A stretch of DNA of 33,047 bases from Syntrophomonadaceae bacterium. Its GTDB lineage: Bacteria > Bacillota > Syntrophomonadia > Syntrophomonadales > Syntrophomonadaceae. The translations under genes were made by a program, and so were the position numbers. Shown piece after piece: positions 2,924 through 32,463 of the stretch (within the stretch, counting starts at the first letter, position 1; each line of letters begins with the position of its first letter). The notes under the pieces were generated by a model. The model was not told the DNA's origin. It ran no database searches and saw only the letters and a program-made list of their open reading frames with translations. Location of the stretch: assembly GCA_014360155.1 (NCBI GenBank), contig JACIYB010000007.1, positions 1-33,047 of the forward strand, in the 5' to 3' direction.

Positions 2924-3074
2924 GATTTCACTGCTGAAAGTTATAATCTGCTGGTTTAAATGTATAAATATTCGCTGCTTTGCCTTCGCGGGGTGTTGCT
3001 TCTATGCTCCGTCAACAGGCTCCTACATATTTATACATTTAAACAGCCTAACTTAGGGTTTTTGCAGTGGAATC
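2924..3074 (+). mobile_element. MITE-like palindromic element, copy 1 (151 bp, internally deleted)
   Basis: GATTTCACTGC...GTTTAAATGTATAAATAT at the left, inverted at the right as ATATTTATACATTTAAAC...GCAGTGGAATC. Near-identical ends occur at 17316-17586 and, inverted, at 28211-28343. Confidence 0.85.
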
Positions 3075-17256: not shown

Positions 17257-17315
17257 CAGGAAATACAGGTTTTGTACATTGAGAAGTGTTTTTTATTTTG
17301 AATTGATGTAAAAGT

Positions 17316-17586
17316 AATTTCACTGCTGAAAGTTATAATCTGTTGGTTTAAATGTATAAATATTCGTCGCCAGACTTCCGCATGGGCAACAATATCCACT
17401 TGTCTCGCGACGAAAGGGGTACCGGGCTAATTCCCATCCGTGCTCAATATCCCTCTCGCCCCCTCCTTGGGGCTCGCCCCCTTTCGTCGCTTCACCTTCG
17501 CGGGGTGTTGCTTCCATGCTCCGTCAACAGGCTCCTACATATTTATACATTTAAACAAGCTAACTTAGGGTTTTTGCAGTGGAATC
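17316..17586 (+). mobile_element. MITE-like palindromic element, copy 2 (271 bp, longest version)
   Basis: Same TIRs as copy 1. Exact flanking direct repeats AAAAGT (17310-17315 / 17587-17592). Interior nested inverted repeats GCGACGAAAGGGG/CCCCTTTCGTCGC. Confidence 0.88.
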
Positions 17587-17632
17587 AAAAGTTAGCTTAA
17601 AAATATTTCATACAGCAGGTGAGGGGAAATCT

Positions 17633-18811
17633 TTGCGCGATGTTTACGGGGATCTTCATATTCATATCGGTATAGCCGGCGGCCAAGCCGTTAAAGTAAC
17701 TGCTTCCCCAAAATTAAGACTGGAATCTGTTATTTTTGAAGAAGCGCCTCGCAAAGGGCTGGATATGGTTGCTGTTGTGGATGCCGGGTGTATCCCCGTG
17801 ACCCTTGAAATCGAGGAGATGTTGCGAGAAGGGAAGCTGCAGGAACACCCCCAAGGGGGATTTATTGCCAGAAATGGAGTGCTTTTAATTGCAGGTTGTG
17901 AAGTGGAAAGCCGGGAAGGCATACATTTAATCATATATCTCCCCTTTTTACATAGTATCAAATATTATCAGAAATATATAAAAACAAGGATTAATAACAT
18001 GATGCTTTCAACGCAAAAGGTTAATGCCAGTGTAGCAGACCTTATTAATCTCAGCTGTTCGCTAGACGGTATTTTTTGTCCTGCTCATGCCTTTACTCCT
18101 CATAAGGGAATATACGGCAGCTGGACCGAGCGGCTCAGCAGGGCAATAGGCCGGAATATTGAGCAGATTAAGGCTTTAGAACTGGGATTGAGTGCTGATA
18201 CGGATATGGCAGATATGATCGGAGAAACCAAAAACTTTACTTTTTTATCGAATTCCGATGCCCATTCACTGGCAAATGTAGGCAGGGAGTATAACCTTTT
18301 TCGTATGGCAGACAAGAATTTTTTGGAGCTTAGATATTGCTTGGAAAACAAGGACGGCCGCAGGATAATGGCCAATTACGGAATGGATCCGCTCTTAGGA
18401 AAATATCACCGCAGTTTTTGCACCCGCTGCTCCACTATAGCAGAGGGGGATATTCCAGTATTTACCTGCAATGGTTGCGGTAATAAGAATATGGTGACAG
18501 GGGTTTATGACAGGATAATGGCTATAAGGGATTATGAAGAGCCCCGTCATCCGATAGGCCGTCCTCCTTACTATTACCGAGTGCCTTTAAAAGAACTGCC
18601 CGGGATAGGGCCCAAGAGGCTGGAAAAGATCCGGGGTTATTTTCCCAGCGAGATAAACCTGGTAGAAAAAGCCAGCGTAGATGCGATAGAAAGGATAGCC
18701 GGAAAGGACGTTGCGCGTATGATAAACAGAATGCGGACCGGACGTCTGAGTATTATTCCAGGAGGTGGAGGGCACTATGGGAAAGTCCAAAAGGATTATT
18801 GTGACGAGTGA
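17633..18811 (+). CDS. Endonuclease Q-like (TIGR00375) PHP-domain protein
   Basis: YGDLHIHIG PHP motif, zinc-finger-like CTRCSTIAEGDIPVFTCNGCGNKN, helix-hairpin-helix-like LPGIGPKRLEKI. TTG 17633 preceded by AGGTGAGGGG. Confidence 0.8.
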   Translation: MRDVYGDLHIHIGIAGGQAVKVTASPKLRLESVIFEEAPRKGLDMVAVVDAGCIPVTLEIEEMLREGKLQEHPQGGFIARNGVLLIAGCEVESREGIHLIIYLPFLHSIKYYQKYIKTRINNMMLSTQKVNASVADLINLSCSLDGIFCPAHAFTPHKGIYGSWTERLSRAIGRNIEQIKALELGLSADTDMADMIGETKNFTFLSNSDAHSLANVGREYNLFRMADKNFLELRYCLENKDGRRIMANYGMDPLLGKYHRSFCTRCSTIAEGDIPVFTCNGCGNKNMVTGVYDRIMAIRDYEEPRHPIGRPPYYYRVPLKELPGIGPKRLEKIRGYFPSEINLVEKASVDAIERIAGKDVARMINRMRTGRLSIIPGGGGHYGKVQKDYCDE

Positions 18812-19521: not shown

Positions 19522-19709
19522 GCATAAAGTTGACTGGCAAAAAATATTATTTTTAAAAAGATAAACCATAGCTTATAGAATATACTTGCATACTGTCTCA
19601 GGTATCCTTACCTTAAGCCTTCATCCCTGAGAAGTTGTTTTTATCCAGGGCTGGTAATGAAATAAAACAACTGCAGTAATAACCCGGGTTTTTAAAAGGA
19701 GATATCCTA

Positions 19710-28193: not shown

Positions 28194-28210
28194 GGTATAG
28201 AAAAAACATT

Positions 28211-28343
28211 GATTCCACTGCAAAAACCCTAAGTTAGGCTGTTTAAATGTATAAATATGTAGGAGCCTGTTGCCCATGCGGAAGTCTAGCGACGAATATT
28301 CATACATTTAAACCAGCAGATTATAACTTTCAGCAGTGAAATC
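28211..28343 (-). mobile_element. MITE-like palindromic element, copy 3 (133 bp, inverted, internally deleted), between spoVAC and spoVAD
   Basis: Reverse complement shares the TIRs of copies 1 and 2. Exact flanking direct repeats AACATT (28205-28210 / 28344-28349). Confidence 0.88.
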
Positions 28344-28420
28344 AACATTTATTTTTAAAATATGTATGATCCAGCTCTTAGTATTTAAGATTTGAGGTTT
28401 ACCAGGTAAGGGGGAATAAA

Positions 28421-31431: not shown

Positions 31432-32463
31432 ATGAAAAAAGTAGGGATACCGCGCGGACTTTTTTATTACTACCATTATCCGCTGTGGAAAACTTTTTTT
31501 AAATATGTGGGGGCAGAGGTTGTTGCATCATCGGCTACAAATCGCGTTACTGTTGATAAAGGAATCGAGTTGGCAGTTGATGAAATCTGTCTGCCTATGA
31601 AAGTTTATCTAGGACATGTCGAAGAGCTCTGCCATAAAAATGTCGATTATATTTTTATTCCCCGCGTGGTAAGCATAGAATCTAAGAGCTATATATGTCC
31701 TAAATTCATGGGAGTGCCTGATATGGTGAAAGCATCTGTACCCGATTTGCCTCCCGTTATAGAGCCGATAATAGACTTAAGTAAAAATAGTAAACTTATT
31801 GAACGTGAAATAATAAGGACAGGGAGGTTATTTACGAGAAGTATCAAGGCCGTCTGGGAGGCATACCGATATGCCTGTCAGGAATTGCATATCTGCAAGG
31901 CACTGGCGCAAGAGGGGTATACTATGGAAGAGGCTATAAGGATTTGGGAAGGAGAACATATCAGCATGAGCAGGAACGGGAGATTGAATATCGGGGTTTT
32001 AGGACATGGCTATTCATTATATGATGAAACCCTCAGCATGGGCATTATAAGCCGTCTTAGGGCTATGGGATGCCGGATTCACCTACCCGAATCACTTGAA
32101 GAAAAAAGTGTGGAGTATGAGGCGTCAACTATGCCCAAAAGGATTTTTTGGACCTTGGGACGAAAAATGGTCGGCAGTGCTCTGCATATGAGTAAAAGAG
32201 ATGATATTGATGGGATAATCTATGTGGCGTGTTTCGGCTGTGGACCTGACTCTCTTGTAGGAGAGATAATCGAGAGAAAAGTGAAAAACAAACCTTTTAT
32301 GCTCATAACGATAGATGAGCATACAGGGGAAGGGGGACTGGTGACACGGCTGGAAGCTTTCTGCGATATGTTAGTACGAAGACAGCTTCTTGGAGATGAA
32401 GGCTTAAGGTTAGCGCAGGGGGATAAAAGGCGGTTAAAAAGCGGCTGTGTCTTCCGGACATAG
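31432..32463 (+). CDS. Acyl-CoA dehydratase activase-related protein (DUF2229/HgdB-like)
   Basis: MKKVGIPRGLFYYYHYPLWKTFFKYVGAEVV, DEICLPMKVYLGHVEEL, CFGCGPDSL, DEHTGEGGLVTRLEAF. Confidence 0.82.
   Translation: MKKVGIPRGLFYYYHYPLWKTFFKYVGAEVVASSATNRVTVDKGIELAVDEICLPMKVYLGHVEELCHKNVDYIFIPRVVSIESKSYICPKFMGVPDMVKASVPDLPPVIEPIIDLSKNSKLIEREIIRTGRLFTRSIKAVWEAYRYACQELHICKALAQEGYTMEEAIRIWEGEHISMSRNGRLNIGVLGHGYSLYDETLSMGIISRLRAMGCRIHLPESLEEKSVEYEASTMPKRIFWTLGRKMVGSALHMSKRDDIDGIIYVACFGCGPDSLVGEIIERKVKNKPFMLITIDEHTGEGGLVTRLEAFCDMLVRRQLLGDEGLRLAQGDKRRLKSGCVFRT

Follow-up and report, generated by a model that had tools for sequence, protein, structure and literature searches.

The window, by which we mean the whole stretch of 33,047 nt that was analysed, contains at positions 17316 to 17586 a 271-bp non-autonomous element and, on either side of it, one shortened relative. 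The features are listed below; the limits of the long element come from the copy search and its orientation from the covariance model R1 (see below).

2924–3074, plus strand: deletion derivative of 151 bp, deleted between GCGACGAA-type direct repeats, with no exact target-site duplication (TSD)
17310–17315, no strand: left copy of the TSD AAAAGT, read in the sequence
17316–17586, minus strand (the RNA-sense strand): non-autonomous element, 271 bp
17316–17344, plus strand: outer terminal arm, type GATTTCACTGCTGAAAGTTATAATCTGYT
17346–17363, plus strand: inner inverted repeat GTTTAAATGTATAAATAT, helix 1 of the RNA fold
17375–17526, minus strand: TwoAYGGAY-type structured RNA core (model R1, 157 bits)
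17407–17419, minus strand: central stem, 3′ half in the RNA sense
17433–17443, minus strand: hairpin B, second GGA loop (GCACGGATGGG)
17459–17474, minus strand: hairpin A, first GGA loop (CCCC-AAGGA-GGGG; AYGGAY in relatives)
17478–17490, minus strand: central stem, 5′ half in the RNA sense, GCGACGAAAGGGG
17539–17556, minus strand: partner arm of the inner inverted repeat
17558–17586, minus strand: outer terminal arm, type GATTCCACTGCAAAAACCCTAAGTTAG
17587–17592, no strand: right copy of the TSD AAAAGT, read in the sequence
28211–28343, minus strand: deletion derivative of 133 bp, junction TGTTG, with the TSD AACATT at 28205–28210 and 28344–28349

An initial annotation, made from the letters of this DNA, had proposed here a MITE-like, palindromic and non-autonomous family, with exact AAAAGT flanks and imperfect terminal inverted repeats around a perfect inner block. 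The flanks are as proposed, the 18-bp inner repeat (GTTTAAATGTATAAATAT) is perfect in this copy, and the outer arms are imperfect, the two arms being 72% complementary over 47 nt. The outer block GATTYCACTGC given in that annotation is correct for the family, but the window copy starts with A (AATTTCACTGC) where the family has G. No transposase is encoded within the 271 bp, and the sole ORF across the element is a mechanical one of 82 aa. For the downstream gene, the mechanical ORF call begins at a GTG (17579) that falls within the element; the likely start of this gene is an ATG near 17640, after AGGTGAGGGG (window 17579–17640).

A search of the genome to which the window belongs (2.19 Mb, 213 contigs) returned 62 DNA matches to the element, and the end motif occurred 177 times, compared to nine times for a reversed-motif control, which corresponds to some 80 elements and not to a family confined to the three copies of the window. 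Terminal inverted repeats at fixed ends were found among 59 candidate two-ended copies, a few of which are probably chance pairings of end motifs. Exact TSDs flanked 40 of the 59 (6 bp, n = 30; 7 bp, n = 10), compared to 1.5 expected by chance, taken as the mean after random re-pairing of left and right flanks. The duplications follow the consensus A(N)4-5T, starting with A in 39 and ending with T in 38 of the 40. The MITE-like, non-autonomous palindromic family proposed at the outset, with its short TSDs, its many copies and no internal transposase, is supported. A comparison via a second repeat family that flanks L004, L013, L061 and L076 gave no clean empty site. The unpaired ends in this genome were surveyed for a long autonomous copy, and those that could be resolved belonged to short copies. 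In L016 (around 1501) and L018 (around 846) one outer arm is missing and the target duplication lies directly beside GGTTTAAATG, which looks like the use of an internal end.

The copies fall into size classes that recur at independent sites, namely 133 bp (six copies), 138 bp (five), 151 bp (13), 271 bp (11) and 349 bp (three), and the deletion junctions sit at 5–8-bp direct repeats of the long form (GCGACGAA, TGTTG and TTAGCC). The two further window copies that had been proposed are real, with 151 bp at 2924–3074 and 133 bp at 28211–28343. Most copies of the 133-, 138- and 151-bp classes bear TSDs of their own, which indicates that the shortened forms transposed after they had arisen. The RNA core is therefore dispensable in cis for mobility, since classes without most of it have spread in this way. 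The description of the window element as a 'parental' copy is apt insofar as the three shorter classes derive from the 271-bp class, but they transposed themselves, and a longer class of about 350 bp with an extra hairpin insert also exists. In this ~320–350-bp class (L059, L065, L066, L068, L073 and L074), an insert of ~80 nt bounded by TCCGGCACTCAAT/ATTGAGTGCCGGA stands in place of hairpin B.

The window element folds with a z-score of -6.8 relative to 200 dinucleotide shuffles. Its core (GTTTAAATG...CATTTAAAC) was found in 18 of the 61 genomes searched, including the one studied here, often between different outer arms, and the comparative fold was derived from an alignment of 24 diverse copies. 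The resulting consensus comprises 49 pairs, 31 of them changed on both sides; with one helix added by eye, the weakest of all at 70% paired, it comprises 54 pairs, with 90.5% of cells paired and double changes in 34 pairs. Compensatory changes, which run across genera (34 of the 54 base pairs), were counted in 143 cells, compared to a mean of 43.5 in shuffled alignments and at most 39 in slid controls, the latter preserving the relatedness of the sequences as the shuffles do not. The internal-loop sequences and the GGA loops are conserved in this alignment. The perfect pairing of GCGACGAAAGGGG with CCCCTTTCGTCGC, already noted by the initial annotation, is a real stem of the fold. The near-complementarity of CGTCGCCAGAC and GTCTCGCGACG is present in the sequence, but both are unpaired in the minimum-energy and in the comparative structures, so that the 'mutually exclusive nested hairpins' described there are unsupported and the interior is rather a single conserved RNA fold of the minus strand. 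Within the genome itself, base pairs survive 45 substitutions in individual copies and are broken by 51; pairing is thus not preserved, and single copies look unconstrained. Singletons were fewer in the core than in the arms (p 0.001), as purifying selection on these copies would predict; we set this result aside because collapse of repeat consensus in a 213-contig assembly could produce it.

In order to identify the core, 4227 Rfam families were searched. At the gathering threshold nothing was found in the window, and the Rfam model of TwoAYGGAY (RF01731), which has figured since 2010 as a structured-RNA candidate without known function (Weinberg 2010, PMC2864571), does not detect the window copy even at an E-value of 10. 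The same family scored above its cut-off in the homologues from genomes G003 (54.5 bits) and G010 (up to 46.1 bits), and it was the top Rfam family, below cut-off, in most of the other relatives tested. As the Rfam model misses the window copy, we built the model R1 from the element's own family alone, leaving out G003 and G010. R1 matches the window copy (157 bits) as well as the G003 and G010 loci. When applied to 25 RF01731 loci sampled across the phylum, it matched 18 at full length, strand and coordinates being in agreement, with E-values from 5e-13 to 0.03 (17 below 0.01; the best 5e-13, 5e-12 and 3e-11); three further loci gave partial or weak matches and four none, and there were no matches among 26 transposase and other control loci. 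In the phylum sample, R1 was positive in 27 of 200 genomes, and 50 of 399 had RF01731, which was often multi-copy.

Judged by these reciprocal covariance-model searches, the interior is related to TwoAYGGAY. It agrees with RF01731 in strand, in helix order and in its two GGA-loop hairpins, and differs in that the Rfam model misses the window copy, whose first loop is AAGGA; the second is ACGGAT, and most relatives have the AYGGAY pair. Since the G003 and G010 homologues pass the Rfam threshold, the window copy is to be regarded as a diverged relative, tied to RF01731 through intermediate sequences and model R1, and not as a formal Rfam member. Another difference is that the window core is part of a mobile element, enclosed by its inner and outer inverted repeats, and the papers found do not describe TwoAYGGAY in such a setting.

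The same core is shared by elements from across the bacterial family, which have several kinds of ends, and it occurs as canonical RF01731 copies across the phylum. Mini-elements of G017, G020, G034, G021 and G035 enclose the core between GATTCCACTGCAAAAACCC or close variants (one in G017 has the TSD AAGTTT), those of G025 between GTTRCCCCTGAAAAACTC with TAnnTA-like duplications, and those of G007 and G029 between GAGACYACTGAAAAAGTC with duplications of about 8 bp; a G010 mini-element has GCAGGAGTATTAGCCGG ends and no clear duplication. Autonomous insertion sequences (IS) with corresponding ends were found for two of these types. An IS1182-family IS (NF033551) in G021 has GAGACCACTGAAAAAG ends, as do the mini-elements of G007 and G029, and G020 and G024 hold further transposase loci with similar ends. 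An ISNCY IS (ISNCY/IS1202 group, NF033593) in G034 has GTTGCCCCTGAAAAA ends, which match the G025 mini-elements. In three other lineages, namely G179 (five loci, one imperfect), G092 (one) and G172 (five of ten, two of these at or just above the cross-locus maximum), canonical RF01731 copies with ends of type GTCGACAAA/GTAGACAAA are flanked by directly duplicated terminator-like hairpins, the hairpin sequence being a different one at each locus. A G082 IS of the IS1182 family likewise has TGACAAA ends and one hairpin on each side, resembling the mini-elements of G179 and G172. The occurrence of one core between several IS-type ends, together with the hairpin-flanked RF01731 copies, suggests that TwoAYGGAY is a recurrent cargo of transposase-mobilised mini-elements. 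In G206, G236, G301 and G348 the RNA is multi-copy and lies within long palindromes, with no convincing duplication around it except at L330 in G206, and we do not claim the same mechanism there. The ten core copies of G206 (L327–L336) lie mostly between GCATTCAATC and GATTGAATGC repeats, and only L330 has a duplicated hairpin. At L170, L212 and L220, IS1182-type elements lie within palindromes of the GGGGACGGTTC/GAACCGTCC type, a recurrent target in these genomes.

A full-length transposase-bearing element with the ends of the window family, which the initial annotation had proposed to look for, did not emerge, none of the IS found having exactly GATTYCACTGC ends. The GATTYCACTGC ends and 6–7-bp TSDs set the window element apart from the IS1182 family. 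Closest to it comes a decayed ISNCY element of the same genome with GATTCTGCTGAAAAA ends, flanked by TAGTTA/TAGCTA; its group prefers TAnnTA as target, whereas the window family inserts at A(N)4-5T. Published TSDs of the IS1202 group measure 3–5, >15 or 0 bp (PMC10132070).

The DNA itself shows two terminal arms, a 6–7-bp A(N)4-5T duplication and a conserved RNA-like fold between the arms, repeated at about 80 sites, and the locus is very probably a non-autonomous MITE-like DNA element that carries a TwoAYGGAY-type structured RNA as cargo. The MITE-like reading of the initial annotation stands, whereas its account of the interior does not, and its 'parental' label is only partly apt. The element would move by ordinary DNA transposition, with a DDE transposase of the IS1182/ISNCY/IS5-like group acting in trans on the outer arms; the decayed ISNCY element is the candidate mobiliser nearest to the window's end type. 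When transcribed, the RNA could act, most plausibly by showing two GGA hairpin loops to CsrA.

The family resembles bacterial MITEs in being short, palindromic and geneless, with TSDs, high copy number and internal-deletion classes, and it differs from them in that a conserved structured-RNA family forms part of it, one which is also found in elements with other ends. It could still be a plain MITE, with an interior structured merely because palindromic hairpins aid transposition or form easily, and without any RNA function. That derivatives lacking most of the core transpose and that individual copies look unconstrained for pairing would agree with this, as would a different palindromic element of ~230 bp in G003, present at ~40 sites (L148, 191–423), which has nearly the same outer ends (GATTCCACTGCAAAAAG) around an unrelated structured core (inner repeat GGCTGAGCAAACATGTTTATC, fold z -8.6) with no convincing Rfam match. 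We nevertheless consider a plain MITE rather unlikely, given the compensatory changes across genera, the conserved internal loops and GGA loops, the strand-specific match to an Rfam family and the recurrence of one core between different ends. A conserved RNA fold in a dispersed element might also suggest RNA-mediated mobility of a retro-element or intron-like kind, which is highly improbable in view of the short TSDs and fixed ends on both sides, the transposition of derivatives without most of the core, and the finding of neither a reverse transcriptase nor an Rfam intron match. The hairpins could instead terminate transcription or serve RNA processing and be retained site by site for the host. 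Of 18 long copies, 16 occupy a place where no ORF of 100 codons would run across the site with the element removed, and other lineages show insertion at terminator-like hairpins. An intergenic location is, however, expected of any tolerated insertion, and individual copies give no sign of pair-preserving selection, which makes such host retention unlikely. Also in G003, two near-equal spans between end motifs had suggested an 8.3-kb transposon; this was rejected, as the two spans share only a 232-bp element and their agreement in length is a coincidence. No PF01609 transposase was found in G003.

Compatible with the cargo explanation, the RNA might serve as a mobile decoy that binds a dimer of CsrA through its two GGA hairpin loops, so that CsrA would be titrated or neighbouring transcripts placed under CsrA control; we regard this as a tentative possibility, somewhat less than even. 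It is suggested by the GGA kept in both loops of nearly all sequences while the stems vary, by a published motif analysis that matched TwoAYGGAY to the CsrA motif (PMC4333381), by a csrA gene in the window's own genome, and by csrA in 48 of 50 RF01731 genomes compared to 237 of 349 others (Fisher p 7e-6, uncorrected for phylogeny). Against it, csrA was undetected in G240, a genome of 94% completeness that carries RF01731 copies, the ~350-bp class has hairpin B with its GGA loop replaced, L033 has lost one GGA loop, and pairing is not maintained through the mutations of individual copies in this genome. A further step, which we hold to be doubtful, would make TwoAYGGAY a selfish mobile RNA module, probably CsrA-binding, repeatedly caught between the mini-transposon ends of different IS families; transposition would then distribute binding sites of a global regulator through clostridial genomes.

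The TwoAYGGAY RNA family and MITEs are each already known. In the open-licence literature we found no report of TwoAYGGAY as mobile DNA, of Syntrophomonas MITEs, or of several IS types whose ends enclose one and the same RNA core, and a single conserved RNA fold in such a setting is an unusual case. If TwoAYGGAY is carried by transposons whose ends and target duplications are defined, its patchy, multi-copy distribution is explained without the assumption of a fixed cis-regulator of neighbouring genes. Its travel inside mobile DNA in many clostridia offers a new way to ask its role, as function becomes testable by comparing full copies with copies without the core. This genome has a second family of dispersed repeats, which includes CTTAAGCCTTCATCCCC and inverted copies and was observed in the window at 19607–19641 and 32379–32413, and also at L062 and L064.
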